DNA from: Mitsuaria sp. GD03876
GTDB lineage: Bacteria > Pseudomonadota > Gammaproteobacteria > Burkholderiales > Burkholderiaceae_C
Length of the DNA: 64,000 nucleotides
Assembly (NCBI RefSeq): GCF_029840635.1
Contig: NZ_JAOCCU010000004.1
Location: 62,001-126,000 of the forward strand
Direction of reading: 5' to 3'
Part shown: positions 1 through 45,949 of the stretch, piece after piece
Layout of the letters: every line of letters starts with the position of its first letter
How positions within the stretch are numbered: position 1 is the stretch's first letter
The notes under the pieces: model-generated
The model's database searches: none
What the model was told of the DNA's origin: nothing
Seen by the model: only the letters and a program-made list of their open reading frames with translations
Translations under genes and position numbers: made by a program

Positions 1-2
1 GC

Positions 3-644
3 GCGCTTGCAGCTGGGGGCGTGACCTGGGCCATCGCAACCTACGCGGTGTCGATCAGCGGAGCTAATCGCGAGGTGACCGAAGGGCTGTCGAGCCTCTT
101 CGCGGCGATAGTGCTGCTGAGCGTGGGAGTGTGGATGCACCAGAAGAGCGTCGCTGGTCAGTGGCAGGCGTACCTGCGGGAGCGCATGTCCGCGGCGCTG
201 AACCGCCGTTCTGCTTTTTTCATGTTCGCACTCGCCTTCGTTGCGGTGTACCGCGAGGTGTTCGAGACGATCCTCTTCTATGCGGCGCTGTGGGGCCAAG
301 GCAATGACGGCGCGATCCTGGCAGGCTTGGGAGTAGGCGTACTCTGCTTGGCGCTCATCACGGTGCTGCTCCTTCGATACAGCGCTCGGCTCCCCATCGG
401 CATATTCTTTTCCGTGAGCTCTTGGCTCGTTGCCATCCTGGCCGTGGTCCTGACCGGCAAGGGAGTGGCCGCACTGCAAGAGGCTGGCTGGATCGCGCCC
501 AGTGCACTGTCCGCGCCGCGTCTGGAGCTACTGGGGGTCTATCCCTCAATCATCGGCCTGACGGCGCAGGCAGCCGTGCTTCTGCTTGTTCTGGCGTTTT
601 TCCTCAGGAATGCGCGCCCGAAAGCTGCGGGCGTCGGCCGATAG
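3..644 (+). CDS. FTR1-family iron permease, C-terminal part (5' end outside window)
   Basis: This is the distal part of an Ftr1/EfeU-type high-affinity iron permease of the inner membrane. The frame is open to the left edge, so the first GTG or ATG seen here is not the true start and the protein is N-terminally incomplete. The visible 210 or so residues hold about five hydrophobic segments. One carries REVFE, the REXXE iron-coordinating motif of this family, followed by TILFYAAL. FTR1 proteins are frequent cargo of proteobacterial metal islands. The gene ends in a basic tail and a TAG, about 60 bp before a small exported-protein gene. Whether the substrate is iron or another metal cannot be told from the fragment. 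Confidence 0.8.
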   Translation, partial: ALAAGGVTWAIATYAVSISGANREVTEGLSSLFAAIVLLSVGVWMHQKSVAGQWQAYLRERMSAALNRRSAFFMFALAFVAVYREVFETILFYAALWGQGNDGAILAGLGVGVLCLALITVLLLRYSARLPIGIFFSVSSWLVAILAVVLTGKGVAALQEAGWIAPSALSAPRLELLGVYPSIIGLTAQAAVLLLVLAFFLRNARPKAAGVGR

Positions 645-704
645 GAGCCTTGTCCGGCATTCGCCTGCGGCGGCTTTGAACTTGCCGCTACACTTTCACC
701 ACTC

Positions 705-1088
705 ATGTTGCGACGCCTTGCTCATCGCCTGACCGTCACGTGCTACGTGGCGCTGTCGCTGCTGTTCTCGCAGCTGGCGCTGGCGAGCTATGTCTGCCCT
801 CAGGAGCAGGACATGACGGCCATGGCTGAGATGGTGGCGTCCGGGGTGCCCTGCGAAGGCATGGACATGGATCAGCCCGCGCTATGCGCGGAGCATTCGT
901 CTGGGGCTCCCCAGTCGTTCGAGGCGGTCAAGGTGCCAACGCTTGCGCCTGCGCTCGTGGTTTCGATGCTGATGGTCAGCGTCGATGTTGGTGGCGACGC
1001 TAGCGTGCCCGTCGGGGGCTTGACTCCGACGGAGGATCGGGCACCAGCCGATCCACTCTTTCTTTCCACACTCAGACTCCGAGTCTGA
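705..1088 (+). CDS. Small exported Met/Cys-containing protein preceding cusCBA
   Basis: The 127-residue product starts with a typical Sec signal (basic MLRRLAHR, then a hydrophobic core ending LALAS). The mature part has CPQEQDMTAMAEM, PCEGMDMDQPALC and a histidine, so potential soft-metal ligands are concentrated near the front, while the rest is low complexity and ends in a basic LRLRV. I do not recognise a named family. Its place directly upstream of a CusC-type gene resembles that of CzcI-like periplasmic proteins before czcCBA, so a periplasmic copper-associated role is a guess from context. Confidence 0.6.
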   Translation: MLRRLAHRLTVTCYVALSLLFSQLALASYVCPQEQDMTAMAEMVASGVPCEGMDMDQPALCAEHSSGAPQSFEAVKVPTLAPALVVSMLMVSVDVGGDASVPVGGLTPTEDRAPADPLFLSTLRLRV

Positions 1089-1163
1089 TCAGCTCCGTCG
1101 ATTGACTGGCGCCGGTGCGGCATGTCCGCCATCTGGCCACACTGTCCTTCGTTCGGAGCTCTC

Positions 1164-2396
1164 GTGAACCCAAGAATCATTGTGCGCATGGCCGCCCTGG
1201 CCGTCGCTTTGCTGCCGCTGCACAGCCGCGGCAACTCTCTCACGCTGGACCAAGCGCTGAGCCTGGCCGTCGAGCGGTCGCAAGCCGCGCAGGCTGCCAG
1301 GTCTGGTGCTGCCAGCGCCGCGCAAACGGCTCGCGCCGCCGCCCAGTTGCCCGATCCCGTCTTGCGCGCCGGGATCGACAACTTGCCCATCTCGGGCAGC
1401 GACCGTTTCAGCGGTCGAGACTCGATGACGATGAAGCGTGTCGGAATCTCGCAGGAATGGGTGTCCGCAGGCAAGCGCAGCGCACGTCAGGCCGCCGCAG
1501 ACGCCGCAGTTCATCGAGAGGTCGCCGCAACTCACGCGTCGCTGGCTGACGTCCGACTACAGACCGGCATGGCCTACCTGGACGTCTACTTCGCGCGCGC
1601 GGCGCTGGGATTAGCCGTCCAGGACGAACGCCACGCGCATGACGAGCTGGAGACGGCGCGGGCTCGTCTGAGCTCAGCCAGCGCGACCAGCCAAGAGGTC
1701 CTCGCGCTGGCAAGCGCCCGCGGCTTGGCCGAGGATGCTGCGGCTGAAGCGCGCCAGCAGCTGGACGTCGCCCGCGCCGCGTTGGAGCGTTGGGTGGGCG
1801 TTCCCGTGGATGACGTGGCCGCAGCGGGCGGCTGTACGGCGCCCAGCGAAGACGCCTATGTGAGTAGGCATCCAGCCGTCGTTGCCGCCCAGCGAGACGT
1901 CGATATGGCGCGTTCGGAGGCAGACTCGGCCCGGATCAATCGCAGCCCCAACTGGTCGTGGGAAGTGAGTTACGGGCAGCGATCTGGATACTCGGACATG
2001 GTCTCGGTGGGCGTGAGCATCCCACTGGCGATCGCGCCGGCGCAGCGGCAGGACCGCGAACTCGCGGCCAAGCTCGCGCTGGTGGAGAAGGCTCAGGCCC
2101 AGCTTGCCGAGACGACTCGAGTCGCTGTGGCGGAGTACCGGGGGCTCAGCACAGAAGCCGCTCGGTTGGCCGAGCGCGTCGAGCGCTATCGAACGTCAGT
2201 CGTTCTCCCGGCACAGCAACGCACGGTCGTTGCTCTGGCCGCATATCGGTCGAATCAGGCGCCGCTCACGACGCTCTTCGATGCGCGCCACGCCGAGCTC
2301 GAAGCCGATAGGAAGCTACTCGCGCTTCAGCGCGATCTGAGCCGAGCACAGGCGTCGCTCGCCTTCAAGGCCATCAGCGAAGGAGACCTTCCGTGA
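1164..2396 (+). CDS. cusC: TolC-family outer-membrane component of copper/silver RND efflux
   Basis: This is the outer-membrane channel of the tripartite efflux system made with the next two genes. The GTG at 1164 is preferred because GGAG lies five bases upstream at 1155-1158 and the product then opens directly with a signal peptide (VNPRIIVRMAALAVALLP); an ATG at 1122 would add 14 residues with no signal character. The body has the long coiled-coil helices of CzcC/CusC proteins, with the N-terminal LTLDQALSLAVERS typical of OEP domains and two repeat halves. At about 410 residues it has the normal size. Its stop overlaps the next start in GTGA, so the genes are translationally coupled. Confidence 0.88.
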   Translation: MNPRIIVRMAALAVALLPLHSRGNSLTLDQALSLAVERSQAAQAARSGAASAAQTARAAAQLPDPVLRAGIDNLPISGSDRFSGRDSMTMKRVGISQEWVSAGKRSARQAAADAAVHREVAATHASLADVRLQTGMAYLDVYFARAALGLAVQDERHAHDELETARARLSSASATSQEVLALASARGLAEDAAAEARQQLDVARAALERWVGVPVDDVAAAGGCTAPSEDAYVSRHPAVVAAQRDVDMARSEADSARINRSPNWSWEVSYGQRSGYSDMVSVGVSIPLAIAPAQRQDRELAAKLALVEKAQAQLAETTRVAVAEYRGLSTEAARLAERVERYRTSVVLPAQQRTVVALAAYRSNQAPLTTLFDARHAELEADRKLLALQRDLSRAQASLAFKAISEGDLP

Positions 2397-3922
2397 ATCG
2401 CGCATCAGTTCTCACTCTGGCTGCGATCGGCGTCGCCTTGGCAGTTGGAGGCTTTTACGCCGGCCGAGCGCTCAACTTGCCAAGCAGGGACCTCGGTCGA
2501 CTCGGTGAAGGAACGGCAAGCACCACCACCGATGCTGATCGCAAGGTCTTGTACTGGCACGACCCGATGGTGCCGGGACGTCGCTTTGACAAGCCGGGCA
2601 AGTCCCCCTTCATGGACATGCAGCTCGTGCCCGTGTACGCCGACGAAGCCGCTGACGCCGGTGTCAAGATCTCCGCTGGCGTACAACAAAACTTGGGCAT
2701 CCGTATGGTCGCGGCGAAGATGACCGACGTGTCGTCGTCGATTGACGCAGTGGGCGCGGTGCAGTTCGACGAAAGACTCAACGTTGCCGTTCAGACGCGC
2801 ATCTCTGGCTACGTCGAGCGCCTGTTCGTGCGAGCGCCCATGTCCATCGTTCACAAGGGGCAGCCGCTCGCCAAGATCTTCGCGCCGGAGTGGCTGGGGC
2901 CGCAAAACGAGCTCCTCGCGCTTAAGCGCGCCGGCGCCGCGCCGGAACTTATCGATGCCGCGAGAGATCGCCTCAAAGCCATGTCCGTCCCCGAAGCGCT
3001 CTTGCGTCGCAGCGAGGACGCCGGCACGGCGCAGGCTCGCTTCACCCTTGACGCGCCTGCCGACGGCGTTGTGGCGGAGCTCGGTGTGCGCGACGGTGCA
3101 GCGGTGAGCCCCGGGAACACGCTGTTCCGCATCGCAGGTCTTGAGCGCGTGTGGGTGGTGGTCGAGGTGCCTGAGGCACAGGGGGCGCAGCTCGTCCGCG
3201 GTCAACGGGTCAGTGCGACGCTGCAGTCCGATGCGGCACAGACTTTCGAAGGTGAACTCAAGGAGATCCTGCCGCAGGTCAGCGCCGACACGCGCACGTT
3301 GCAAGCGCGCTTCGAGGTCGACAACAGGAACGGCAGACTGGTGCCCGGCATGTTGCTGCGATTGAAGATTGCAGCTGCCACCGCATCGCGCCTGGTCATT
3401 CCAGCCGAAGCCGTCATCCGTACGGGCGTCAGGGCCTTGGTCATCGCCCGCAAGGACGGCGGCGCCTTCGAGCGGCGCGAGGTGAAGCTCGGTTCGGAGC
3501 TGGGGGGCGACGTGGAGATCCTGCAGGGCCTGCGTCCCGGTGAAGAAGTCGTGGCCAGCGGCCAGTTCCTCATCGATTCCGAAGCCAACCTGAAGTCGGC
3601 ACTTGGAGGCATGGCCCCCCCGCCTGGTACCCCCAGCACGCTCAGTGCCACGGCTGCGTCCTCCTTACCGGCCGTCCCAGTCGCCACTGGCACCTACGCC
3701 GCCGAAGGCACGATTGAGAGCGTCGACGCCGACAGCATCACGCTGTCACACGGCCCTGTGGCTGCGCTGAAGTGGCCCGCCATGACCATGGCTTTTGGGA
3801 AGCCTGCACCTAATGCTTTCTCTGGAGTGAGGCCCGGTGACACGGTCCACTTCGAGTTCAAACAAGGCAGTTCTACGCAATGGGAGCTGGTCTCGGTGCG
3901 CAAGATGGGTGGTGCGCCATGA
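2393..3922 (+). CDS. cusB: CusB-type periplasmic adaptor with built-in CusF domain
   Basis: This is the membrane-fusion subunit linking the pump to the outer-membrane channel, 509 residues from GTG 2393. A single N-terminal hydrophobic anchor is followed by a short heavy-metal-binding domain (about residues 51-82, with YWHDPMVPG and [12 protein letters not shown]), then the barrel-sandwich and beta-barrel adaptor core. The C-terminal 70 or so residues are a CusF-like OB fold with H453, W461, M464 and M466, the same His-Trp-Met-Met set that binds Cu(I) or Ag(I) in E. coli CusF. Metal capture and hand-over are therefore in one polypeptide. A separate cusF remnant after cusA is broken, so this fused copy probably does the work. 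Confidence 0.92.
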
Positions 3923-6900
3923 TCGCTGCGCTGATCCGATGGTCGATCGGGAATCGCTTCCTGGTGCTCATTGCCACCGCGATGCTGGTCGCCGCGGGCG
4001 CTTGGTCCGTCGCGCGCACGCCGGTGGATGCGTTCCCCGATCTGTCCGACGCACAGGTGATCGTACGAACGAGCTACCCGGGCAAGCCCCCGCAGGTCGT
4101 CGAAGACCTCGTCACATATCCGCTGACCACCACGATGCTCAGCGTGCCCGGCGCCAAAACGGTGAGGGGTTACAGCTTCTTCGGCGACTCGTTCGTCTAC
4201 GTGCTCTTCGATGATCGGACCGATCCGTACTGGGCCCGGTCCCGTGTGAGCGAAGCGCTTGGTCAAGTCCAGGGGCGACTGCCGGCTGGGGCCACAGCGG
4301 TGCTAGGCCCGGACGCGACCGGCGTGGGATGGGTTTACGAATATGCGCTGGTCGATCGCACAGGTGCGCACGACCTGTCGCAGCTGCGCGCGCTCAACGA
4401 TTGGTTTCTGAAGTTCGAGCTCAAGACAGTACCGGACGTGGCCGAAGTGTCCAGCTTGGGCGGCATGGTCCGGCAGTACCAAGTCGTCCTAGACCCAAAC
4501 CGCATGCGAGCGCTCGGCGTGACGCAGGAGGCTGTCTTGGCCGCCTTGCGCAGTGCCAATCAGGCCTCTGGAGGATCCGTCGTGGAGCTGGCGGAGAGCG
4601 AGTACATGGTGCGCTCGCGCGGCTTCCTGAGGTCGCTAGACGACTTCCGCGACATCCCGGTGAGCGTGGCGCGGGCGACGCCGGTGATGCTGCGGGACGT
4701 CGCTTTCGTGCAGGTCGGTCCCGAGATGCGGCGCGGCATTGCGGAGCTCGACGGCGAGGGTGAGGTCGCCGGCGGCGTGATCGTGATGCGATCCGGCAAG
4801 AACGCCCGAACCACGATCGAAGCCGTCAAAGCCAAGATCGAGGCGCTCAAGCCTGGCCTGCCAAAAGGCGTCGAGATTGTGGAAACCTACGATCGGTCGA
4901 CGCTCATTGACCGCGCCATCGATCATCTGCGCGACAAGCTCATCGAGGAGTTCATTGTCGTCGCGGTCGTCTGCGCCGTGTTCCTGTTCCACCTGCGTTC
5001 CGCCTTGGTCGCAGTCGTGACCTTGCCCGTCGGCGTACTGACCGCCTTCATCGTGATGCACTGGCAGGGCCTGAGTGCCAACATCCTGAGCCTGGGCGGC
5101 GTGGCGATCGCGCTGGGCGCGATGGTCGATGCGAGTGTCGTGTTGGTCGAGGCGGCGCACAAGCACTTGGAACACTTCGAGGCTCGGCATGGGCGATCTG
5201 CCAGTGTTGTCGAGCGGTGGGCCCTCATCACGGAGGCTGCCGTGGAGGTGGGACCTGCGCTGTTCTTCTCGCTGCTGGTGATCACGCTGTCGTTTCTGCC
5301 GGTGTTCACGCTTGAGGCGCAAGAAGGCCGCCTGTTCTCGCCTTTGGCGCTGACGAAGACCTATGCGATGGCCGCGGCGGCGGGCTTGTCCGTGACGCTC
5401 GTGCCGGTGCTGATGGGCTTCCTGATCCGGGGGCGCATCCCGCAGGAGAACGCCAATCCGATCAACCGACTGCTCATCGCGCTCTACCGACCGGCGCTGG
5501 AGGTCGTCCTGAGGTTCCCCAAGATGACGCTGCTGGCGTCTGCGCTGGTGCTGGCGCTCACCGTGATCCCGCTGATGCGTCTTGGCGGCGAGTTCATGCC
5601 GCCACTGGACGAAGGTGATCTGCTCTACATGCCGTCTGCGCTACCAGGGATATCCGCCTCCAAGGCCGCGGAACTGCTGCAGCAGACGGATCGGCTCATC
5701 AAGACCGTACCCGAAGTGGATCGCGTCTTCGGCAAGGCCGGCCGCGCCGACACGGCGACCGATCCGGCTCCGCTGGAGATGTTCGAGACTACGATCCGAT
5801 TCAGGCCACGAGCCCAATGGCGGCCGGGTCTCACACCGGAGAAGCTCGTCGAGGAGCTCGACCGCGTCGTGAAGGTTCCGGGGTTGTCCAACGTCTGGGT
5901 TCCACCCATCCGCAATCGCATCGACATGCTGGCCACCGGCATCAAGAGCCCGGTCGGCATCAAGGTGTCCGGCCCTGACCTGGCCACGCTGGACAAACTG
6001 ACGACGCAGATCGAGGCTGCGGTGAAAACTTTGCCCGGCGTTTCGTCGGCCTTGGCTGAACGCCTGACCGGTGGCCGCTACATCGATATCGACGTCGACC
6101 GCGCGGCTGCGGCGCGGTATGGACTTTCTGTGGCGGCGGTCCAGTCGATCGTCTCGACTGCCATCGGCGGAGAGAACGTCGGTGAGGTGGTGGCCGGGCG
6201 CGAGCGCTATCCCATCAATGTCCGCTACCCGCGCGAAATCCGGGACTCGCTGGAGCGGCTGCGGCAGCTGCCTTTCGTGACAGACAAGGGGACCACCGTG
6301 CTCCTTCAGGACGTCGCCCGTGTGACAGTCGCGGACGGGCCGCCCATGCTGCGCAGCGAGAACGCCAGGCTGTCGGGCTGGGTGTACGTCGACGTTCGGG
6401 GGCGCGACCTGCGCTCCGTCGTCCAAGACATGCAAGCCGCGGTTGGACAAGAGGTGGTCATGCCGGCCGGGTATGCCTTGTCTTGGTCCGGTCAGTTCGA
6501 ATACCTGGAGCGCGCAACGCAGCGGCTGAAGCTGGTGGTACCGGCGACGTTGGCTGTGATCTTTGTGTTGCTGTACGTCTTGTTCCGCTCCGCAGGTGAT
6601 GCGCTACTGGTGATGGCGGCGGTGCCGCTGTCGCTGGTCGGTGGCTTCTGGCTGGTGTGGGGACTTGGACATGCGGTGTCTGTCGCCACTGCGGTGGGCT
6701 TCATCGCCTTGGCCGGCTTGGCGGCGGAGTTCGGCGTCGTGATGCTGGTGTACCTCAAAAACGCCCACGCGCAGCGCCTGGCGGCCGGCGAAGCGGACGA
6801 CGAAGCCACGCTGCTCGCGGCAATTCGCGAAGGTGCCGTCCTTCGTGTACGTCCCAAGGCGATGACGGTCGCTGTGGTGATGGCCGGCCTGCTTCCGATC

Positions 6901-7098
6901 CTGCTGGGTGGTGGGACAGGATCGGAGGTCATGGGGCGCATTGCCGCCCCCATGGTGGGCGGCATGGTGACGGCGCCCCTGCTCAGCATGCTCGTGGTTC
7001 CAGCTGCTTGGTACCTTTTGCGCCGGCGACGTACGTCGGCAGGGGAGATATCAAGCCGGTCGGCCACTTCCCGTCCTCTCCAACCAACTCAACTTTGA
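3919..7098 (+). CDS. cusA: CusA-type copper/silver RND efflux pump
   Basis: This is the inner-membrane proton-driven pump, 1059 residues. ATG 3919 is chosen because it overlaps the cusB stop in ATGA and begins [14 protein letters not shown], the usual CusA N-terminus; an upstream ATG would only add 13 residues. M571, M621 and M670 match the three-methionine relay of E. coli CusA (573, 623, 672) in both spacing and context ([20 protein letters not shown]). The intramembrane segment [18 protein letters not shown] is of the HME4 monovalent-cation type and differs from the CzcA gene later in the window. Substrate is therefore Cu(I)/Ag(I) with good confidence. It is the last intact gene of the operon. 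Confidence 0.94.
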
Positions 7099-7110
7099 AG
7101 GAATCCTGTC

Positions 7111-7464
7111 GATGAATGCCAACAACGTGCTTGTCGCAGCGCGGATCACGCTGCTGGGCGCAAATGCGCAGGCGTAAGGCGCTTCAAACTCCACAGCCAT
7201 GCCGATGTCTAGCAAGGCTGCAGCTTCGGCAGCGATGCCGTTGGTGTTGGGTGGGGTGCGTAAGGTCGACTTGGCCAAAAGATTGATCGTCCTGCGACAC
7301 GGCGACACGGCGACATACCCAACCTCGCTATGCCGGGCATGACCATTGGCGTCGACTTCGCCGACAAGAAGCTGCTCGATGGCCTCACGGCCGGCCATCT
7401 CGTCGAATTTCAAGCAGAAGTGATCAAGGGCAAGGCAACGGTGACGGAACTCAAGCGACGCTGA
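7111..7464 (+). pseudogene. Broken cusF-like gene
   Basis: A start at 7111 encodes a 21-residue signal-peptide-like piece ending GANAQA and then stops at TAA. A second frame from about 7205 reads VRKVDLAKRLIVLRHGD. The frame then shifts, and from 7330 reads MPGMTIGVDF through to a TGA at 7464 with the usual CusF ending. Between the last two, the eight bases GGCGACAC are present twice in tandem (about 7299-7314); removing one copy restores RHGDIPNLAMPGMT in one frame. The pieces in order match a periplasmic copper-binding protein of the CusF family. At least two lesions (early stop and 8-bp duplication) inactivate it. Confidence in the family is good; the exact ancestral start is uncertain. 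Confidence 0.75.
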
Positions 7465-7591
7465 CCGGGATCCCCGGTTCCAGTCGCTCCAGCACCTGCA
7501 CCTGGCGCACTTCGGACTGCGCCTACCAAGCGCGCCTGAGAGGTCCTCGAATGGGACTGCCAGACATCTCACCAGATCAATTTCTCAGGTG

Positions 7592-7620
7592 TTGCTGTGT
7601 TTCATCGATTCGAGTATTCT
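7592..7620 (+). promoter_or_regulatory. Likely promoter of the arsR-arsC-arsC-acr3-arsH operon
   Basis: TTGCTG at 7592-7597 and TATTCT at 7615-7620 are separated by 17 bases. The region around the second box (TTCGAGTATTC, then TTTAAATATGGAATC) is AT-rich with imperfect dyad symmetry, as expected for an ArsR operator overlapping the -10 box. The arsR ATG at 7627 falls near the expected transcription start, so the mRNA would have almost no leader. No experimental start is known; an alternative -10 in TTTAAAT is possible. Confidence 0.45.
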
Positions 7621-7626
7621 TTAAAT

Positions 7627-7953
7627 ATGGAATCAACAGATGTCGTACGCGCCCTCGGCGCACTGGCCCAGCCGCTGCGCTTGCAGGTCTTCCGCGCGCT
7701 CGTCGTGGTGGGCGATACGGGTCTAACCCCCGGTGCCATCCAGCAAGCGCTCGGCGTAGCCCCCGCGACGCTGTCGTTCCACCTTAAGGAACTGGTCGCT
7801 TCGGGACTGGTAACGCAGGAGCGGGTGAGTCGAAATTTGGTCTACCGCGCCGCGTACGCCCAGATGAACGACCTGCTGAGTTACCTCACTGAAAACTGTT
7901 GCCATGGCTCGTCGTGCGCCGTGGAAACGGCTACATCCAGCTGCGACTGCTGA
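7627..7953 (+). CDS. arsR: ArsR-family arsenite-responsive repressor
   Basis: The 108-residue winged-helix repressor would bind the operon promoter and be released by As(III). The ATG at 7627 is preferred over a GTG 30 bp upstream, because MESTDVVRALGALAQPLRL is the usual N-terminus and the promoter boxes overlap the longer version. The recognition helix lies around residues 43-58 (GVAPATLSFHLKELV). Cysteines 91, 92 and 97 in ENCCHGSSC match the C-terminal three-cysteine As(III) site of the Acidithiobacillus-type ArsR, not the E. coli site in the DNA-binding helix; two more end the protein (CDC). It is the first gene of a tightly spaced ars operon. Confidence 0.92.
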   Translation: MESTDVVRALGALAQPLRLQVFRALVVVGDTGLTPGAIQQALGVAPATLSFHLKELVASGLVTQERVSRNLVYRAAYAQMNDLLSYLTENCCHGSSCAVETATSSCDC

Positions 7954-7966
7954 ACAAGGAATCTTC

Positions 7967-8461
7967 ATGACATCGAGGGTCTACAACGTGCTGTTCATCT
8001 GCACGGGCAACTCTGCACGGTCCATCCTTGCCGAGGGCTTGCTGAACCACCTGGGGCGTGGCCGCTTCCAGGCGTTCTCGGCTGGTAGCCATCCCAGGGG
8101 CGCAGTCCATCCGCTGGCTCTCAAGGAACTGAGCGAGCTGGGTATCCCGACGGACGGCTTCCGCAGCAAGAGCTGGGAGGAGTTCGCTGAGCCGGGCGCT
8201 CCCGAGATGGACTTCGTCTTCACCGTCTGCGACCAGGCTGCTGGCGAGGTTTGCCCCGTGTGGCCCGGTCAGCCGCTGACCGCGCACTGGGGCATGCCGG
8301 ATCCGGCTGCCGTTGAAGGCAGCGATGACGCGAAGCAGCAAGCCTTCCGCGCCGCGGCGGTCACGATGAAGCGCCGGCTGGAACTGATGATGTCCTTGCC
8401 GCTCCAGAGCCTGGACGCCATGGCTATCCACAAGGAAGTCAAAGACATCGGGACGCGCTGA
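7967..8461 (+). CDS. arsC: Thioredoxin-type arsenate reductase ArsC, copy 1
   Basis: This cytoplasmic enzyme reduces arsenate to arsenite and has the low-molecular-weight phosphatase fold. ATG 7967 is the first plausible start after arsR and gives 164 residues beginning MTSRVYNVLFICTGNSARS. C12 and R18 form the CX5R phosphate loop. C88 and C96 (TVCDQAAGEVCP) are the further cysteines of the disulphide relay used by thioredoxin-coupled enzymes. It lies 13 bp after arsR and 3 bp before a second, divergent arsC. The two copies share motifs but differ clearly in sequence, so this is an old duplication or a combination of two lineages. Confidence 0.92.
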   Translation: MTSRVYNVLFICTGNSARSILAEGLLNHLGRGRFQAFSAGSHPRGAVHPLALKELSELGIPTDGFRSKSWEEFAEPGAPEMDFVFTVCDQAAGEVCPVWPGQPLTAHWGMPDPAAVEGSDDAKQQAFRAAAVTMKRRLELMMSLPLQSLDAMAIHKEVKDIGTR

Positions 8462-8464
8462 GCC

Positions 8465-8953
8465 ATGACCACCAACGTTCTCATCCTGTGCACCCACAAC
8501 TCGGCGCGAAGCGTGCTGAGCGAGGGCATGCTGAACCATTGGGCCCAGCGTCTGGGCAAGGACATCAAAGGCTTCAGCGCCGGCAGCGCGCCGAGCGGGC
8601 GCATCAATCCGTATGCCCTCCAGGCGCTGGGCGAGGCCGGCATCGACACCAGCGCCTATCGCAGCAAGAGTTGGGACGAGTTCGTCACCGATGGCGCGCC
8701 CGAGATGCGGGTCGTCATCACCGTGTGCGACAGCGCTGCGGCTGAGCAGTGTCCCTACTGGCCCGGCAGCCCCGTCAAGGTTCATTGGGGCTACGCCGAC
8801 CCGTCGAACGCGCCAGAGGCCGACAAGCCTCAGGCCTTCGAACTGACGCGGCAGGCCATCGGCTACCGGATGCTCCAGCTGGCGCAGTTGCCGCTGAAGA
8901 CCATGTCCAACGCCGAGCTGCAGCAGGCGCTCGATGCCATCTCGAAGTCCTGA
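8465..8953 (+). CDS. arsC: Thioredoxin-type arsenate reductase ArsC, copy 2
   Basis: This second arsenate reductase has 162 residues, beginning MTTNVLILCTHNSARS. C9 and R15 form the CX5R loop; C88 and C96 in TVCDSAAAEQCP complete the relay. The loop has His where copy 1 has Gly (CTHNSAR against CTGNSAR). The start is only three bases after the copy 1 stop, consistent with one transcript. The pair may differ in thiol partner, but nothing in the sequence decides that. Confidence 0.92.
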   Translation: MTTNVLILCTHNSARSVLSEGMLNHWAQRLGKDIKGFSAGSAPSGRINPYALQALGEAGIDTSAYRSKSWDEFVTDGAPEMRVVITVCDSAAAEQCPYWPGSPVKVHWGYADPSNAPEADKPQAFELTRQAIGYRMLQLAQLPLKTMSNAELQQALDAISKS

Positions 8954-8962
8954 ATCCCGACC

Positions 8963-10042
8963 ATGACTATCGCAACTCTCAAGCCGGCCGCCACCGTTGC
9001 CAAGCCTGCCATCAGCTTCTTCGAGCGCTACCTCAGCGTCTGGGTTGGCCTTTGCATCGTCGTCGGCGTTGCGCTGGGCCAGCTCTTCCCCGGCGCGTTC
9101 AAGGCGATTGCCTCTCTCGAAGTCGCGCAGGTCAACATCCCGGTGGGCCTGCTCATCTGGGTGATGATCGTTCCGATGCTGCTGAAGATTGACTTCGCAG
9201 CGCTGGGGCAGGTGAAAGCCCATGCCCGAGGAATCGGCGTCACACTCTTCATAAACTGGGCCGTCAAGCCGTTCTCGATGGCGCTACTGGGCTGGATCTT
9301 CGTGCGCCAGCTCTTCGCCCCCTGGCTGCCAGCAGACCAGATCGACAGCTACATCGCTGGGCTCATCCTGCTGGCCGCGGCGCCGTGCACCGCCATGGTC
9401 TTCGTCTGGAGCCAGTTGTGCAAAGGTGACCCGTACTTCACCCTGTCTCAGGTCGCGCTCAACGACGCCATCATGGTGGTCGCCTTCGCGCCCATCGTCG
9501 CGCTGCTCCTGGGCCTGTCCTCGATCACGGTGCCATGGGACACGCTATTGACCTCGGTCGGCCTGTACATCGTCTTGCCGGTCATCCTGTCGCAGCTGTG
9601 GCGCAAGCTGCTGCTCAAGCGCGGGGTCGGCCACTTCCAAGCTGTGGCAGCCAAGCTCGGCCCGTGCTCCATCGGGGCGCTTCTGTTGACCCTGGTGCTG
9701 CTGTTCGCCTTCCAGGGGGATCGCATCATCCAGCAGCCGCTGGTAATCGCCTTGCTGGCCGTACCCATCCTCATCCAGGTGGTGCTGAACTCGGGGCTGG
9801 CCTACTGGCTCAACCGCAAGATGGGTGTGCAGCATTGCGTCGCAGGCCCGTCGGCCCTCATTGGCGCCAGCAACTTCTTCGAGCTGGCCGTGGCAACGGC
9901 CATCAGCCTCTTCGGCTTCCAGTCCGGCGCCGCCCTGGCGACCGTCGTTGGCGTTCTCATCGAGGTGCCGGTGATGCTCGCCGTCGTCGCAATCGTGAAC
10001 CGCTCGCAGGCTTGGTATGAACAAGGAGCGCAGCGTGCCTGA
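8963..10042 (+). CDS. acr3: Acr3-family arsenite efflux permease
   Basis: This inner-membrane arsenite exporter has 359 residues and about ten transmembrane segments, and works with the upstream reductases by expelling the As(III) they make. The conserved cysteine is C142 in [12 protein letters not shown], and the second signature [13 protein letters not shown] follows. The ATG at 8963 lies nine bases after arsC copy 2. Length and motifs are normal. Its 3' end overlaps the start of the arsH frame. Confidence 0.93.
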
Positions 10043-10756: not shown

Positions 10757-10765
10757 GCGCGAGTG

Positions 10766-10787
10766 CGGGGCTGCGGCCCCGTTCTCT
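10766..10787 (+). terminator. Rho-independent terminator after arsH
   Basis: CGGGGC (10766-10771) pairs with GCCCCG (10776-10781) around a four-base loop, and TTCTCTT follows. It sits ten bases after the arsH stop and just before the promoter of the next unit. Confidence 0.6.
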
Positions 10788-10795
10788 TGGTCATC

Positions 10796-10858
10796 TAGTT
10801 GCTATTGACAACCAAAAGAGCGATTTCTAGCATGCGGCCAAATAGTTGCTTTCACAAC
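10796..10858 (+). promoter_or_regulatory. Promoter with two MarR-type operator dyads
   Basis: TTGACA at 10805-10810 and TAGCAT at 10828-10833 are spaced by exactly 17 bases. TAGTTGCTATTGACAAC (10796-10812) overlaps the -35 box, and TAGTTGCTTTCACAAC (10843-10858) lies at and below the expected transcription start. Each is a GTTG...CAAC dyad with 7 or 6 bases between the arms, beginning with the same TAGTTGCT. The second ends three bases before the marR ATG. Repression by MarR binding at both sites, with autoregulation, is the natural reading. Confidence 0.65.
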
Positions 10859-10861
10859 GAT

Positions 10862-13206: not shown

Positions 13207-13219
13207 GCACGCGACGAGC

Positions 13220-14392: not shown

Positions 14393-14438
14393 ACAACTCG
14401 GCGACTCGCAGACCAGCGCTGGCACGGGATTACCCTAG

Positions 14439-24109: not shown

Positions 24110-24123
24110 GTTGCGTCATCTCT

Positions 24124-25731: not shown

Positions 25732-25757
25732 TTGGAAACTCGTTGATGGATCGTTGT

Positions 25758-34644: not shown

Positions 34645-34650
34645 GGCAAG

Positions 34651-39847: not shown

Positions 39848-41287
39848 TCACCTTGAACCGCGATACATAGGAGACGGATCAGGGATCCAGTACCGTTCCG
39901 CGCCATGCTCAAGCTCCACGCCACCGTATGCGTTAAAGAGCTTTCCCTCCGTCAGCAAGTGCTGAGCTTGCTTAAGGGAGATCCAATGGAAGTACATGAG
40001 CGCCACCGGCCGCCAGCGCTGATCGAAATCGGCAGAGCGGTCCTCTTCGAACAGCATCTGCCGGATCTGCACCTCAAGTTGTCGACGGCGCCTGTGGAAG
40101 ATCGTGCGAGCGCTGGATTTCGGCACCGCAAGGTTGACACCGAGCGTCTCTCGAAGGAATGTCGCGAAGGCGAAGAGCGCGGCGCGTTGACCAGGCGCCT
40201 TCATGAGGTAGTGTGTGACGTCATCCTGCGCCGGGAGCTGGTCCCCTGCCAAAGATGCCAGATCGAGGGCGGGTCTAAACGACAGCCGCGCGGTCCGCAC
40301 CGAGATATCTCCCTGTGCAACTCGCTTGCTCAAGAACTGATGAAACGCCATCAACGCTTGGCGAGGCAACGGCTGCTCTGGTAGCTCAGAGAGTTGCTCT
40401 TCGAAGCGCCTGGCTTCGGACGCTTGTATCTTCTTCTTGGCACCGATCTCGACTCCGAGCACTTCCGACAACCACCTGGCCGCTAGCAGGTGCGTGCGCA
40501 AACCTTGCGTTCCAAAATGGCCCAGCAGATCATCGGAGCGCCAGCCACCATCGTTGCGCTCCGGGAGAGCAGCCAGCTTGACGAAGAAGGCTACATGGCG
40601 CGGCAGTGACAGCGCCGTGCGTTTGGGGTCCGTTGTTGTGGCCGCCCAAGCCGCAAATTCCTTGAAGCGCTTTTGGATGCTGGCACGCGAGACCATATGC
40701 GAAAGCTGGTCCGCATCGATCGAGCATTTCTGCGTCCAGTAGCAGCACTCACACCGGCCATTCGCCCCTGCGGCGACCGCGCTCCCGCAGGCTCCGCAAG
40801 GTGCCGAGGGGTTCTCCGCGCACTTCTTGCAGATCCATCTTCCATCCGCGGTGGCAGTGCATGACCGCGATCGCCGGCAGCTGCTGCAGGTGTGGTGGTC
40901 GTTGTTGCATCCCGGACAAAGTCGCGGAGCTTCAGGATTGCCGTGGCGGCGAGACAACCGCGCTGATGGACGGTTGCAGCGTTCACACGGCTCCTCGTCA
41001 ACGAAATAGGTCCGACAACTCGAGCACGCAGGGCCGTTCGCCGTGAGCTTTCCTAGCGGCTGCCCGAAACGACGGCACCGCACACACGGCTGCTTCTTGA
41101 TGCACGCCGTGCACACAGCGTCGGGTTCGCGCACAAAGAGCCGACTGAACATGCCGCAGCCACCACACAACCGTCGCTTGAACAGCCGCGAGTAGCAGGT
41201 GTTGCAGTATGGAATCTCACGGTAGACCTTGTGAGCGCGATCAATCGCGTGATCGCAGCCTCCGCAGATGATGCTCTTTTCGGTCAT
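39848..41287 (-). CDS. Zinc-ribbon/core-binding protein of the transposition module (TniE/TnsF-like position)
   Basis: The 479-residue protein starts MTEKSIICGGCDHAIDRAHK at 41287, overlapping the tniQ stop by four bases. The first 200 residues hold many CxxC pairs (CNTCY, CGGCG, CTAC, CVRC, CSSC, CERC, CPGC, CSSCRRS, CKKC, CGAC, CECC), a string of zinc ribbons. Farther on ALMAFHQFLSKRVAQGDISV and VTHYLMKAPGQRAALFAFAT resemble the SAM-like core-binding domain of tyrosine recombinases, but no catalytic domain is seen. The place after tniQ corresponds to tniE of AbaR-type islands. It is probably a target-selection or end-binding component. Confidence 0.65.
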   Translation of the reverse strand: MTEKSIICGGCDHAIDRAHKVYREIPYCNTCYSRLFKRRLCGGCGMFSRLFVREPDAVCTACIKKQPCVRCRRFGQPLGKLTANGPACSSCRTYFVDEEPCERCNRPSARLSRRHGNPEAPRLCPGCNNDHHTCSSCRRSRSCTATADGRWICKKCAENPSAPCGACGSAVAAGANGRCECCYWTQKCSIDADQLSHMVSRASIQKRFKEFAAWAATTTDPKRTALSLPRHVAFFVKLAALPERNDGGWRSDDLLGHFGTQGLRTHLLAARWLSEVLGVEIGAKKKIQASEARRFEEQLSELPEQPLPRQALMAFHQFLSKRVAQGDISVRTARLSFRPALDLASLAGDQLPAQDDVTHYLMKAPGQRAALFAFATFLRETLGVNLAVPKSSARTIFHRRRRQLEVQIRQMLFEEDRSADFDQRWRPVALMYFHWISLKQAQHLLTEGKLFNAYGGVELEHGAERYWIPDPSPMYRGSR

Positions 41288-42258
41288 AGGTAGGCTCGAT
41301 GCATGCGGCGCAGAAGGCGCGCCCATTCCTGGCGGACCAACCCCGCCGGCCGCGCACCCGAGTTCGGCCTGAACGTCGGGCTCCTACGTTTCTCACCTGG
41401 TCGAGGATGCTGTGGACCCGCCAGTAAGCAGGACACATCTTGCGGCGTAATCTGCGCCAGCTGACCTGCCACCCGGCCAAGACGCAGATGGCGCTCACGC
41501 ACGGATAGCAGTTCGAAGCGAAGTCCCGGCCCAATCGGTACCGGAGGGTTGCCGTTCACCATCAGTTCCTTAGGCTGCTTGAGCCGAACGCAGTGCTGCA
41601 GAACCGCGAACCATGCAGGCGTCGCGACTTCGAGCGATCCGAGGACACCTGTGCCGCACTTCAGCACGGTGTCCGCCCGTGCCTGCATCTCAGCGGCCCA
41701 CGGGTCCAAGCGACTCGCGATGGCACTGCGGTGATCGAACTGACAGTTCCAGCAGCTCGTGAGGCTCACGGGACGAGGAGTGTCGCGAAATGGTTGATGC
41801 ACGGCCAGGCACTTGCAGCAGTGCTCAAGGAGTTCGCAACCGTGGTTCAAACAGCCCACATTCCATGCCGCACGCCATGCTCTACGGAGATAGGGGCGGA
41901 CATCCGACGCGAGGCATTCGGGGCAAAACGGCTGGCCGCCCGCGTTCCTGCGATTGCGCATTCCCCTTGCCGCCAGCCAAGGCCAGACGGGCTCCGCGTG
42001 GCCAAGCGAAGCGCCCAAGGGCCGCAGCAGTTCGCGCATCTCGCAAGCGCGAATTTGCTCCGCGTCGACACCGCATGCTCGATGCAACGCGTTTAAGCGG
42101 GCATCGCTGAGTCCGCGATCCAGATCCACCGTCCATGCCCGCCAGCCTGGCCAGATCACGCCGGTCAAGGTGAGTGGTTCGCAGTGCGCTGCGACTGCGG
42201 AGCGCAGAAGCCAGCTTGAAAGCGTCTCGTCTACCTGGATTGGAACAAGGCGGATCAC
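41284..42258 (-). CDS. tniQ: TniQ/TnsD-family target-selection protein
   Basis: The 324-residue protein starts at GTG 42258 (VIRLVPIQVDETLSSWLLRS), with AAGG upstream; upstream parts of the frame run into tniB and are not coding. The N-terminal TniQ domain is followed by zinc-binding FCPECLASDV and ECLHxx-like NVGCLNHGCELLEHCCKC. In this family TnsD-like members bind the attachment DNA; here the target is comM, so this protein is the likely comM reader. It lies ten bases after tniB. Confidence 0.82.
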   Translation of the reverse strand: MIRLVPIQVDETLSSWLLRSAVAAHCEPLTLTGVIWPGWRAWTVDLDRGLSDARLNALHRACGVDAEQIRACEMRELLRPLGASLGHAEPVWPWLAARGMRNRRNAGGQPFCPECLASDVRPYLRRAWRAAWNVGCLNHGCELLEHCCKCLAVHQPFRDTPRPVSLTSCWNCQFDHRSAIASRLDPWAAEMQARADTVLKCGTGVLGSLEVATPAWFAVLQHCVRLKQPKELMVNGNPPVPIGPGLRFELLSVRERHLRLGRVAGQLAQITPQDVSCLLAGPQHPRPGEKRRSPTFRPNSGARPAGLVRQEWARLLRRMHRAYL

Positions 42259-42268
42259 GCAATCGCCT

Positions 42269-43180
42269 TCAGGCAGCCTTGCCTCGCAGCTTCGCGGTGC
42301 GGTACACGCCTCTCGCGCGGATGGCATCCTCAGTGATCTGCTCGATGCCTGTCTTGATCGCATTCTTGGCGAGTTCCTGAAGAAGGAACTGCAGATCACC
42401 AAGAACTCCGCCAGAGTTCGTGTGGAGGAGGCTTGCCAGCCTGACCGTCGACAGTTGCGACGCCTTGCGCAGCGGCAACACACTTTCAAACCCAGCGAGC
42501 AGCGTTTGAAACTTTTCGTCGGCGTCCCAGAGCGGCACCGGCAAAATCTCAAATCGGCTGGTGTGCTGCGGGTCCGTGTACAGAACTTGGACCGCATTCG
42601 CAGTTCCGATCCCGACGATGGGGACCCGGCAGACGTTGCACAGGTATTTGATCGCGTTCATCACGTCACCTTGCTTCTTCCTCGTCCCGCCTAGCAAGCT
42701 GTGGAACTCGTCGATGAAGATCATCCTGACCTTGCAGTCACGCAACTGCTGGACCACCTGATTGCGCAGAGTAATCGCTGGAGACGAGGCTCGATATGCC
42801 GTCCAGAACTGGTCAAGGATGGTCGCATACAACCCCTTCTCATCTGGAGTGGGAGGCGCCTGCGCGAGGATCACCGGCTTGACTGCCTCCCGCTCCTCAT
42901 CAATGAACGGCTCTCCGCATTGCTGGACGAAGCGGTGCACCAGCGTGGTCTTCCCGTTGTTGGGCTCGCCAATGAGCAGATAGTTTTTTGGCCGTATGCG
43001 CGACGGTGCATTGAGAACACCCGTGAAGACGTCCAACACCTCCTTCGCTCGTCCGTAGCCTACCCAGCGGTCCTCTTCGATGAATGCGAGACGTTGGGCA
43101 TCCGTCAGCTGCATCACATGGCGAAACTTCTCGTTGACGTGGTCGTACGGGCCAGAAGAAGCTGGACTATTCATGGTCAA
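42269..43180 (-). CDS. tniB: TniB/TnsC-family AAA+ transposition regulator
   Basis: The 303-residue ATPase has Walker A GEPNNGKT at 71-78 and Walker B MIFIDEFHS around 153-161. It links target binding by TniQ with the TniA transposase and prevents re-insertion nearby. The start ATG at 43180 overlaps the tniA stop by four bases; a second ATG two codons later is possible. Confidence 0.92.
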   Translation of the reverse strand: MTMNSPASSGPYDHVNEKFRHVMQLTDAQRLAFIEEDRWVGYGRAKEVLDVFTGVLNAPSRIRPKNYLLIGEPNNGKTTLVHRFVQQCGEPFIDEEREAVKPVILAQAPPTPDEKGLYATILDQFWTAYRASSPAITLRNQVVQQLRDCKVRMIFIDEFHSLLGGTRKKQGDVMNAIKYLCNVCRVPIVGIGTANAVQVLYTDPQHTSRFEILPVPLWDADEKFQTLLAGFESVLPLRKASQLSTVRLASLLHTNSGGVLGDLQFLLQELAKNAIKTGIEQITEDAIRARGVYRTAKLRGKAA

Positions 43181-45138
43181 CCGATGTCCAGGGTTGGAGC
43201 GATAGGCGCGTCAGTCATCCCGGAAAAACCCACCTCGCCGCTCTGCCGAGCGGTCGGTGGTGACGAGGACACGAAGCCTTTCGCGGCGGCGGGCGACGCG
43301 GACGGTGGGTGTGACCCTGCCGACTTTGCAACCTTGCGGTGTTCTGAGTTGCGTTGCTGTTCTCGACGCGCCCGCTTGGTTTTTGCTGCCGACTCAGCAA
43401 TGTCTTCCCGTCGAGACTTGATGGACTCAAAGACCGCATCGGCGTCACCCGGATCGAACCCCTGGTCCTTCAGCTCTTTCTGAGCCCGCCGGTGTTCCCA
43501 GATGCTGATGCTGTCTTCTGTATAGACCCAGGGGACGCGGAAGTACTGCTTGACGTCCGGGTCGAAGAACCAGAGCGCCGAAAGGTCCCGCGGGTCTCGG
43601 CGGAACCGCAGCTTCGGGCTCGCCTTGGTTTCCGAATCCTCCTGACCAATCCAGGGTCGAAGGCAATGATCAAAGTAGCGGAGGTTATCAAGCGTCACAC
43701 CATCCTTTTGAATGGTGCGCTCAAACGACGGCATGAAGTGCAGCATCAACGCGTGCTTGTCCTGGGTCCTGCTCGGCAGACCTGTCCCACGCGCGGTGGG
43801 TCCGCCAAGGAGACCTTGCTCCCACTTGCGCAGGGGAGTCATGCCGATCGCGGAATGAGGACGACGGTGGTACTCGTTGCAGATCACCTTCACCAACTGC
43901 CGCTCGAACTCGGACAAGTTCATGATCGCCCGACCTTCTGAGTCGTACTCGCCGCGCTGTCCAACGTTGGAGAACGTGGTACCCGGTATGTCGTGAATCT
44001 CTCGCATCAGCGTCCCTTGGAGCCTCTCGATGCGGCCGCCGAATCTCGGCGTGCAAGCGGGCCGCCAATGCAGGTCAATTCCCAGCTCCGTGCAGGCCCG
44101 GATGAAGTCACTCGATCGGAACTCTGGGCCGTTGTCCGAGACAATCAGCTTAGGGCGCCCCCAGGCCGGCCAAACAGCATCGATGCCGAGCTTCAGCAGC
44201 CCTTCCTCCTTCGGCAGGATTGCATGCGCCATGCACATGGCGCTCGACGTCCTGGAGGGAGCGTCGAAGGAGAGATAAAAGCCCAGCACCATCCGGCTGA
44301 ACCCGTCCATGGCCAAGGTGATCCAAGGCCGGCCGATGGGCTTGCGGTACACGTCATCCACCAAGATGACGTCCACACGCGTATGGTCGATCTCAACGCG
44401 CGAAAGCGGGAAGTCCGCGTCGGGTGCGGTGCCAGGAGTTGCCTGAAAGCGCTGCTTCGCAGCCTCCTTCTTCCCGCGCTTCTTCATCCGCTCTTCAAGA
44501 GGGATGGCGTCGATGCGCGCTTTCAGCGCGGTTGGGCTCGGTGCCTCAACTTTGTACTCACGACATTTGATTGCAAGTAGGCGGTGCGTCTTCGTGAGGG
44601 ATGGTGCCTCCGCGGTCATGTAGTACTCATCGATCACAGCTCGCAGAGCCCGCTCGGCGTGCGCATCCAGGCGCCAGTTCCCTTTCTTCCAACCTCGTTT
44701 TCCCTCGAGCAGCGAGGAGACAGCATCGAAGTTTCGGTACTTGCTCAACCAGCGATACAGCGTCGACGTGTCCTTGCCGACGCGGGCGGCGTGCTCGGAC
44801 ACCACGCTGCGGGTGAGATGACCCGCCTCAATGAGCGGGCGGATGATTTCAAATCGGGCGCGGGCCACCTGCCAGTCCTCATCGTTCACCGCCGCAATGT
44901 CTTCCATCGACATGGGAGGGATCTCATTGCCCAGAGGTTCGAGCTCGAAGAGGCGCAGAACGTCAGGGCGCCCGGTGTCGACGTTGCGCGCAAACACTGA
45001 CTCAAGCCCCAGAACCTCGACGACACGGAAGATCCCGCTCGCGTGCTTGACCAAGGCTCCCGGACCGGTGGAAAACGTTGCCAGATTCTTCGTCACGGCG
45101 CTGGTCGAGCCCGCTTCGCTCTCGATGGCTTCACTCAT
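43177..45138 (-). CDS. tniA: TniA/TnsB-family DDE transposase
   Basis: The 653-residue transposase has N-terminal helix-turn-helix regions, an integrase core with D251 (VEIDHTRVD), D335 (IVSDNGPEF) and E371 (GRIERLQG), giving the DD35E spacing, and a Mu-type C-terminal beta barrel followed by a disordered basic tail that would contact TniB. It cuts the 3' ends and joins them to target DNA. Overlaps tnsA by eight bases. Confidence 0.94.
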   Translation of the reverse strand: MSEAIESEAGSTSAVTKNLATFSTGPGALVKHASGIFRVVEVLGLESVFARNVDTGRPDVLRLFELEPLGNEIPPMSMEDIAAVNDEDWQVARARFEIIRPLIEAGHLTRSVVSEHAARVGKDTSTLYRWLSKYRNFDAVSSLLEGKRGWKKGNWRLDAHAERALRAVIDEYYMTAEAPSLTKTHRLLAIKCREYKVEAPSPTALKARIDAIPLEERMKKRGKKEAAKQRFQATPGTAPDADFPLSRVEIDHTRVDVILVDDVYRKPIGRPWITLAMDGFSRMVLGFYLSFDAPSRTSSAMCMAHAILPKEEGLLKLGIDAVWPAWGRPKLIVSDNGPEFRSSDFIRACTELGIDLHWRPACTPRFGGRIERLQGTLMREIHDIPGTTFSNVGQRGEYDSEGRAIMNLSEFERQLVKVICNEYHRRPHSAIGMTPLRKWEQGLLGGPTARGTGLPSRTQDKHALMLHFMPSFERTIQKDGVTLDNLRYFDHCLRPWIGQEDSETKASPKLRFRRDPRDLSALWFFDPDVKQYFRVPWVYTEDSISIWEHRRAQKELKDQGFDPGDADAVFESIKSRREDIAESAAKTKRARREQQRNSEHRKVAKSAGSHPPSASPAAAKGFVSSSPPTARQSGEVGFSGMTDAPIAPTLDIG

Positions 45139-45862
45139 TGGTCGGGATCCACAGTTCGGTGTTGAGGTTCAACGGCCAGCAGACATCGCATTCGATCCTT
45201 CGGTTCGCGACCAGACTCCAAAGTTGCGCGACGCCTTCTGCACGATGGGCCGGGGTGAAGTACTTGTTGAGTAGGTACTCGAACTCGATGAGGCCAAGTT
45301 CCTCAAGGTCTTCGAGGATGCAGAGGTTGAGCGCCTCTTCGAACTCCAGGTCTTCGTAGCGGCGCAGAAACTTGATGTTGTCCAGTGCTAGGGTGCGGAT
45401 GCGTCGGTCATCCATGATCGTGAAGCGCCAGCCCATCTCGATCGCGTAGCGTCGAGCAGCCTTCCACTTCGCACTCCACTCTCGCCAGTTCGCCTTCCAG
45501 TCCGCCGTGGGCTTCACTTCGACCAGCAGGGGCTTCCGCTGCTGCTTCAAGCTGCCTGGCGTGTGCCGGTACGTCACCAGGAAGTCCGGCGTGTAGGTGT
45601 ACTTACGCCCGCTTGGCCCAACAAACGCTACCGCGCACGGCTGTGAAACCACGTGCGCTACGGCGAGGCTGAAGCGCTGCAAAAGAAGGTAATCCTTCTC
45701 AAGCGGCGACTCAAAGGGGACGCCTGGCTCCCCGTCGCGGAAGAAAACATGGCCCGTGACGTTGCGGTATGACCGCGGAATCTTGCGAACCGACCGAGGC
45801 AGGTCGGTGGAGTCGCACTTATTTGAAGAAATCTTCTTGGCAGTCGCAGCTAATTTGCTCAT
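45131..45862 (-). CDS. tnsA: TnsA-like endonuclease (TniC)
   Basis: The 243-residue protein has FESPLEKDYLLLQRF (E51, E55), YTPDFLVTY (D93) and LLVEVKP (E115, K117), the restriction-like active site of TnsA, then a helical C-terminal domain. TnsA cuts the 5' strands so that the element leaves by cut-and-paste. The start ATG at 45862 lies inside the terminal repeats. Called tniC in AbaR-type elements. Confidence 0.85.
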   Translation of the reverse strand: MSKLAATAKKISSNKCDSTDLPRSVRKIPRSYRNVTGHVFFRDGEPGVPFESPLEKDYLLLQRFSLAVAHVVSQPCAVAFVGPSGRKYTYTPDFLVTYRHTPGSLKQQRKPLLVEVKPTADWKANWREWSAKWKAARRYAIEMGWRFTIMDDRRIRTLALDNIKFLRRYEDLEFEEALNLCILEDLEELGLIEFEYLLNKYFTPAHRAEGVAQLWSLVANRRIECDVCWPLNLNTELWIPTNE

Positions 45863-45944
45863 TTGCGTCGCAGCAATTTCGAGGAGAACCGCGCTAAGTG
45901 ATTGTCAGGCGTGTAACTCAGTCGCAGCAATGGAAATTTGTCAC
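45812..45944. repeat. Island end with TniA-binding repeats
   Basis: Four copies of a 13-base element occur: GTCGCACTTATTT at 45812, GTCGCAGCTAATTT at 45843, GTCGCAGCAATTT at 45867 and GTCGCAGCAATGG at 45921 (the last followed by AAATTT). The end of the element reads, from outside in, as GTGACAAATTTCC or, with one more base, TGTGACAAATTTCC, and TGT is the usual terminus of Tn7-like elements. Such asymmetric arrays of transposase sites are typical. The matching repeats at the other end are outside the window. Confidence 0.75.
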
Positions 45945-45949
45945 ACCCG
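45945..45949. other. Target-site sequence ACCCG at the comM junction
   Basis: ACCCG directly adjoins the outermost repeat. The same five bases flank AbaR islands in comM of Acinetobacter. The true duplication may be shifted by one base (CCCGG) because the terminal A is shared; the second copy lies outside the window. Confidence 0.65.

Follow-up and report, generated by a model that had tools for sequence, protein, structure and literature searches.

The mobile elements closest to the one described here are Tn7-like transposons of the Tn6022 kind. Faure et al. 2023 (PMC10293859) report that Tn6022 of Acinetobacter johnsonii needs TnsA, TnsB, TnsC, TniQ and TnsF to enter comM, that TnsF (tniE/orf3), a 498-aa protein with a zinc-finger-like N-terminus, binds comM, with a 10-bp stretch in the Walker B region being required, and that a divergent TnsE lies near the left end on the opposite strand. 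Related backbones commonly disrupt comM in Acinetobacter baumannii as AbaR islands, which carry antibiotic resistance, and Tn6022-type AbaRs are also described at other sites (PMC7253598). Tn7-like elements of up to 140 kb and with heavy-metal cargo are already in print (PMC8649781), as are Tn7-like metal islands in Burkholderia (Lan et al. 2023, PMC10702557); these BGImetal islands are, like the locus studied here, tnsABC-tniQ islands with heavy-metal genes, but they measure 33–43 kb, and the text examined mentions neither comM nor tnsF. Here we analyse a 64,000-nt stretch of Mitsuaria sp. GD03876 (the window; G000:C34:62001-126000, contig NZ_JAOCCU010000004.1, from a 6.36-Mb assembly of 94 contigs), which holds the right part of a Tn7-like element that splits comM. 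We are highly confident that this is a Tn6022-type Tn7-like transposon that entered comM in a single insertion, and that a Tn3-family transposon later landed inside it. No report of this element was found in the parts consulted of the literature on TnsF and comM or on comM islands with copper or arsenic genes.

Reading the contig beyond the window, we found that the whole Tn7-like element occupies C34:3540-107945 (104,406 bp). comM is interrupted mid-frame at window position 45945/45946; its 5′ half is found further left on this contig, at C34:2739-3539, separated from the 3′ half by 104 kb. The leftward extension proposed by the first-pass annotation of the window thus recovered the second end together with the 5′ part of comM. 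The element has TGT...ACA tips, the left one reading TGTCGCAA... and the right one ...TTTGTCACA, and a perfect 5-bp target-site duplication (TSD), CCCGG, flanks both ends. Excising the element together with one duplication copy leaves an open 505-codon comM, reading ...SLWARRAFRAPHH.... This is a simple insertion with TSD into comM. The first-pass annotation had placed the right end at 45949 instead of 45945 and had read the duplication as ACCCG, which includes the last A of the element; that A is missing at the left junction, where CCCGG stands in place of the expected second ACCCG. The left end carries TGCGAC sites at 20 and 40 nt from the tip and the right end a larger set (Table 1); such unequal sets of TnsB-type repeats, together with TGT...ACA ends and a 5-bp TSD, are those of a Tn7-like element. 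The host genus also holds Mitsuaria sp. PDC51 (G641) and Roseateles aquatilis CCUG 48205 (G637). The TGCGAC spacing of both ends is identical in the PDC51 element, and in the R. aquatilis element it is 20 and 40 (left) and 20, 75 and 99 (right).

For wider comparison we used 16 betaproteobacterial comM islands, of which 14 are whole (G1036 stops about 0.7 kb short of the comM 3′ half, and G651, from R. aquatilis, runs off its contig). Taking the best-scoring pair, TGT/ACA tips with a perfect 5-bp TSD were found in 13 of 14 whole islands, G1043 having none; the 12 other islands with tips and TSD measure 14.7–66.4 kb, as against 104.4 kb for the element in the window. We also looked for a second, intact comM in the host genome, which the first-pass annotation had named as evidence against an island there. 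Mg_chelatase_C has a single match at E <= 0.001. Other matches to Mg_chelatase (n=3, 20.5–27.4 bits) and ChlI (n=1, 31.5 bits) pass the family cut-offs but are weak beside the comM halves, which score 83–216 bits (Mg_chelatase) and 146 bits (ChlI), and we therefore found no second intact copy. The insertion would be expected to abolish ComM function.

Six tns-type genes, all open frames, are ordered tnsA-tnsB-tnsC-tniQ-tnsF-tnsE, and tnsA to tnsF lie on the minus strand at window 39848-45862, adjoining comM. Pfam families and the junction confirm the earlier observation that comM is cut in mid-frame beside tnsA-tniA-tniB-tniQ and a fifth gene; that set of five stands, but a sixth, tnsE-like gene had been overlooked. 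In TnsB the presumed DDE residues D251, D335 and E371 are in place at invariant columns of the alignment, and TniQ would be 324 aa long if started at GTG 42258, a start chosen by eye. We identify the fifth gene as TnsF, the published comM selector of Tn6022 (PMC10293859), because its place, size and cysteine-rich N-terminus agree with those printed for the Tn6022 protein. The protein has many CxxC pairs, its cysteine-rich N-terminus is common to homologues of comM-linked elements, and homologues with 28–44% identity occur in five other elements, each with a link to comM. As in the Tn6022 group, a further mark of which is the dead tyrosine-recombinase fold of TnsF, tnsF adjoins a short tniQ (a 492-aa TnsF after a TniQ of ~324 aa). 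As judged from these genes, the targeting system is of the published Tn6022/TnsF kind, which supports the earlier description of a betaproteobacterial Tn7-like element that resembles Tn6022, targets comM and carries metal cargo. The likeness to the A. johnsonii element (AjTn6022, PMC10293859) extends to comM insertion, target-site duplication and a TnsF of ~500 aa; the element in the window differs in its size of 104 kb with a nested 48.7-kb Tn3-family transposon, in its insertion 56–57 bp upstream of the point found in all 60 readable relatives (see below), and in having its TnsE-like gene beside tnsF on the same strand, where that printed for Tn6022 is near the left end on the opposite strand.

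The sixth gene is taken as TnsE by profile. A TnsB-alignment scan kept 80 of 365 relatives, the named loci below, and homologues of the 647-aa protein occur in 27 of them (three matches are shorter than 350 aa). Aligned with hhalign to a genuine TnsE (L154, found with PF18623, TnsE_C, in 1 of 369 genomes), a 23-member profile gave a probability of 93.8% (E 1.7e-7) and an 11-member profile 91.5%, as against 0.1% and 0.2% for two controls. Across 12 genomes (the host and those of 11 loci), PF18623, counted anywhere in a genome, gave one weak match of 13.6 bits. In six whole islands the homologue is found close to the left end and on the opposite strand, within ~0.3 kb in five (G1044, G1033, G1043, G1040, G1031) and at ~0.9 kb in G1030. 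This is the position printed for the TnsE of Tn6022 (PMC10293859). We take the 647-aa protein as TnsE. In the window, PDC51 and R. aquatilis the gene directly follows tnsF on the same strand.

By analogy with the tested A. johnsonii relative, TnsF would bind the Walker B region of comM, TniQ would connect TnsF to TnsC, and TnsA with TnsB would cut and join. TnsE may provide a second route, to conjugative plasmids. Of the 69 plasmid records with a TnsF homologue, 51 come from Acinetobacter, and their occurrence is consistent with such a route in the wider family; the tns module of the window itself has no near match among the plasmid records.

The insertion point was compared across the 80 named loci. 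Three junction-reading patterns made 56, 58 and 60 of these readable, and the count of 60 is used here; the tip pattern is loose (ACA, AGA, AAA or CGA), the firmer test being that comM is broken at the site. In all 60 readable relatives comM is broken with the tip 49–51 nt before the Walker B codons (58 at 50), mostly after the GGG of the protein motif GGGSxPRPGE, and it is this count, not a printed definition, that defines the usual point. The element in the window ends 107 nt before the Walker B codons, with its TSD at comM nt 797-801, so that strand transfer here would have taken place 56–57 bp upstream of the usual point of the Tn6022 group. Only in the window is the comM stretch at the usual site intact, and the Walker B and canonical sequences of the host comM look ordinary. 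The comM 5′ fragment ends at residue 286-289 in 23 of 24 genomes versus 269 in the window; in the 24th, G1028, no such fragment was seen. The earlier claim that the same five bases are used as in AbaR islands is not supported by this comparison, as the TSD is CCCGG and lies off the usual site; for ACCCG as the TSD of AbaR islands, no supporting text was found.

The remaining 20 loci were unreadable for various reasons. Six (L080, L098, L105, L121, L132, L139) have no comM match in stretches of <13 kb, six (L126, L127, L128, L140, L142, L143) match neither comM nor TnsF, and L117 is off-register. Three Vreelandella loci with tnsF (L091, L107, L130) have no comM match beside the right end, and another target may have been used there. 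In L129, L133, L134 and L138 (three Pseudoalteromonas, one Planctobacterium) the comM 5′ half precedes the tns genes, the elements sitting reversed at about the same comM codon; no TnsF match was found in these four at E 10. In L133 and L134 (Pfam), and by similar sequence in L129, tniQ and the TnsE-like gene are separated by a gene for a UvrD-type helicase.

The non-canonical site allows that the element arrived by the TnsE route or by untargeted insertion, comM being hit by coincidence, and the three Vreelandella loci are in keeping with this. We consider it very unlikely, since a chance landing within 57 bp of the family site in a 6.36-Mb genome would itself be very improbable, and tnsF is open and full length. 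The sibling element in PDC51 (NZ_FOZE01000002.1) shares the tns module, right end and czc block with that of the window, to which it is 96.6–98.8% identical over three blocks of 20.6, 22.5 and 8.2 kb (TnsA 99.2, TnsB 98.8, TnsC 95.1, TniQ 96.3, TnsF 98.4 and TnsE 90.8%). It differs in being 53.3 kb long, in occupying the canonical comM site with TSD GGTGG, in having no Tn3-family block and in its left 1.8 kb. The host flanks (comM and just upstream) are 76.4–88.6% identical between the two genomes. That the elements are nearly identical while their hosts have diverged and their positions in comM differ indicates that the two insertions were recent and independent of each other. comM is unsplit in 12 of 16 genus genomes (one with an in-frame stop).

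One way to account for the displacement is that a second element once filled the canonical site, pushed this insertion upstream and was later lost exactly. comM has been struck repeatedly in the genus, being split in 4 of the 16 genomes and in one of them twice. Such a loss would have had to proceed without trace, as the canonical site and Walker B are intact in the comM 3′ half, and target immunity, which counters insertion beside a like element, would oppose the second arrival. We regard this history as improbable, if a little less so than a coincidental landing. In the same genome that is split twice, G640 (C30:254000-340000, L045-L049), the two inserts are different elements. The first, 32 kb long, lies at comM nt 192-198 and has the inverted tips CCTGTAG/CTACAGG. 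The second, of 50 kb, interrupts the Walker B codons (nt 920); its large right-end genes resemble tyrosine recombinases by eye, and it retains a stretch like the left end of the PDC51 Tn7-like element (68%).

L117 (Acinetobacter sp. MB5; L117:9000-9200) is likely a second off-register insertion, as judged from its right junction, the one junction read: this end falls downstream of Walker B, although its TnsF is 95% identical to that of L122 (Acinetobacter sp. NIPH 2100), which uses the canonical site. The insertion points of the window element and its PDC51 sibling, with 98% identical TnsF, are 56 bp apart and both on one side of Walker B, and the 95%-identical Acinetobacter pair has insertions on opposite sides of it. 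Returning to guidance by TnsF, it is quite conceivable, although we put this forward tentatively, that it works without a single fixed point in comM, a flexible or stepwise spacer such as a TnsC filament linking selector binding to strand transfer. Tn7 at glmS, unlike this, inserts at a fixed offset.

The Tn7-like element contains a Tn3-family transposon at C34:27783-76479 (48,697 bp), which has no counterpart in the PDC51 element. The block is bounded by 21-bp imperfect inverted repeats (19/21 alike) starting GGGG, and its TSD, CAGCA, is present in two copies around it and in one copy at the PDC51 empty site. Its tnpA, on the left side (C34:28088-30874), scores 656 bits with the NCBIfam Tn3 transposase model (cut-off 500), and Tn3-type transposase, GGGG-starting repeats and 5-bp TSD together place the block in the Tn3 family. 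The transposase is 45–50% identical to Tn3-family transposases annotated IS882, from which type the block differs in its 48.7 kb of cargo. It splits a frame whose DNA runs uninterrupted in PDC51, showing that it inserted later into the Tn7-like element, which without it measures 55,704 bp. Among the 5000 plasmid records listed, identity to the best place in each is <60%; the metal stretches are covered by plasmid records over at most 18% of the query, and over 6% among the best matches listed in a second comparison.

The nesting divides the metal cargo. The copper, arsenic and zinc/cobalt/cadmium genes named by the first-pass annotation are present, but the cus genes, a copper P-type ATPase, a multicopper oxidase and the ars genes lie in the separate Tn3-family block, whereas czcCBA, the cation diffusion facilitator and the CadA-type ATPase belong to the Tn7-like part common to PDC51, whose element also has CzcA. 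On the favoured reading, the copper and arsenic genes arrived separately on the 48.7-kb transposon, and the zinc/cobalt/cadmium genes, with an ietAS-like defence pair, were brought by the Tn7-like element itself. Family searches covered part of the cargo; CusA, CzcA, the cation diffusion facilitator, the CadA-type and copper ATPases, Acr3 and ArsR score above curated NCBIfam cut-offs at subfamily level or better. The cusA-like frame scores 1293 bits with the CusA/CzcA model TIGR00914 (cut-off 701), Acr3 383 bits (cut-off 283) and ArsR 56.8 (cut-off 55). CusB reaches 285 bits, below its cut-off of 390, and CusC is named from its place and a weak TolC match; CzcB and its outer-membrane component are named from best models, below specific cut-offs. 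The arsH-like gene is short, its model match being confined to the N-terminal part.

Table 1. Features of the window (positions are those of the 64,000-nt stretch)
Feature	Position	Strand	Basis or remark
Right 44% of Tn7-like element	1..45945		Ends, TSD, joined comM frame; remaining left 58,461 bp outside the window
Right part of nested Tn3-family transposon	1..14479	+	
cusC-cusB-cusA-like copper/silver RND efflux genes	1164..7098	+	In Tn3-family block
arsR, arsC, arsC, acr3, arsH-like, arsK-like, other frames interspersed	7627..14392	+	In Tn3-family block
Two-component regulator genes beside czc	15405..17425	-	Named by eye from translation
CadA/ZntA-type P-type ATPase	17454..19574	-	TIGR01512 490 bits, cut-off 313.5, frame 17454-19670
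Cation diffusion facilitator	19873..20820	-	TIGR01297 296 bits, cut-off 82
czcA-czcB-czcC heavy-metal RND efflux genes	20930..27053	-	TIGR00914 1759 bits, cut-off 701
tnsE-like gene, 647 aa	37748..39691	-	Family-profile alignment
tnsF (tniE/orf3), 492 aa, predicted comM target selector	39848..41326	-	
tniQ	41284..42258	-	Pfam TniQ 65 bits on 437-aa frame
tnsC (tniB)	42269..43180	-	Pfam TniB 211 bits; Walker A GEPNNGKTT
tnsB (tniA)	43177..45138	-	Pfam Mu-transpos_C above cut-off, rve below cut-off
tnsA endonuclease	45131..45862	-	Pfam TnsA N and C domains
Right end	45812..45945		TGCGAC sites starting 20, 74, 98, 129 nt from tip
Target-site duplication CCCGG	45946..45950		Second copy C34:3535-3539
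comM 3′ half	45946..46667	+	

To the left of the window, PADLOC marks an ietA-ietS-like anti-phage pair and a PDC-S60-like NACHT protein (L009:11517-18570, C34), all within the Tn7-like block common to PDC51. Within the Tn3-family block are a KfrA-type plasmid gene, a gene like PDC-M48B and a weak match to SIR2 (L010:13085-17965, C34), as well as a phage-integrase-type gene (C34:56215-57174). The KfrA-type and integrase genes could point away from a transposon, towards a plasmid-derived island or an integrative conjugative element of 104 kb. Given the Tn7-type ends, the full tns set and a 5-bp duplication on each of the two nested elements, that origin is extremely unlikely, on family searches that covered part of the cargo and were not aimed at conjugation genes.

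A Tn6022-type transposon in comM with a later Tn3-family arrival is favoured by the ends, TSD, reading frame, tns families, TnsF homologues and end repeats, and by the 60 of 60 readable relatives in comM. Several points weigh against it. We infer guidance of this event by TnsF from gene content and target gene only, because the site differs from the usual one of the family. Neither TnsF nor the 647-aa TnsE-like protein is matched significantly in Pfam or NCBIfam, the latter is also without a significant match among PDB sequences, and PF18623 finds nothing in the host genome. ArsC, ArsH, ArsK, CusB and the multicopper oxidase fall below specific NCBIfam cut-offs, which makes their names less certain, and metal resistance is a prediction from the genes.

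tnsF is present in 3 of 16 genus genomes (the host of the window, PDC51 and R. aquatilis G637). With E <= 0.001 as the limit, 7 of 250 family genomes and 8 of 399 order genomes match this TnsF, in some cases partially or weakly; both counts include the host. As an upper bound for split comM, 32 of 237 family genomes with a ComM match show it in >=2 pieces. The first-pass annotation had proposed a family of comM elements carrying metal islands across Burkholderiales. In a tblastn survey of the 16 betaproteobacterial islands with nine metal-resistance query proteins, a set that would miss for example merA, matches were confined to two, the window and its PDC51 sibling, and neither such a family nor metal cargo as a rule of comM elements is upheld on the islands surveyed. 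A P-type ATPase match was seen in the visible stretch of 8 of the 80 named loci, all Halomonadaceae by title; sequence of >=3 kb past the tns genes is visible in 58 of the 80, and PDC51 (L071), whose czc block lies further in, is not among the eight, so that eight is a lower bound.

Together, these results suggest that a large environmental metal-resistance island uses the targeting system that carries the AbaR antibiotic islands, and they show that a comM island can grow by one transposon landing inside another. That two natural sibling pairs with near-identical TnsF differ in their insertion points makes the TnsF spacing rule testable.

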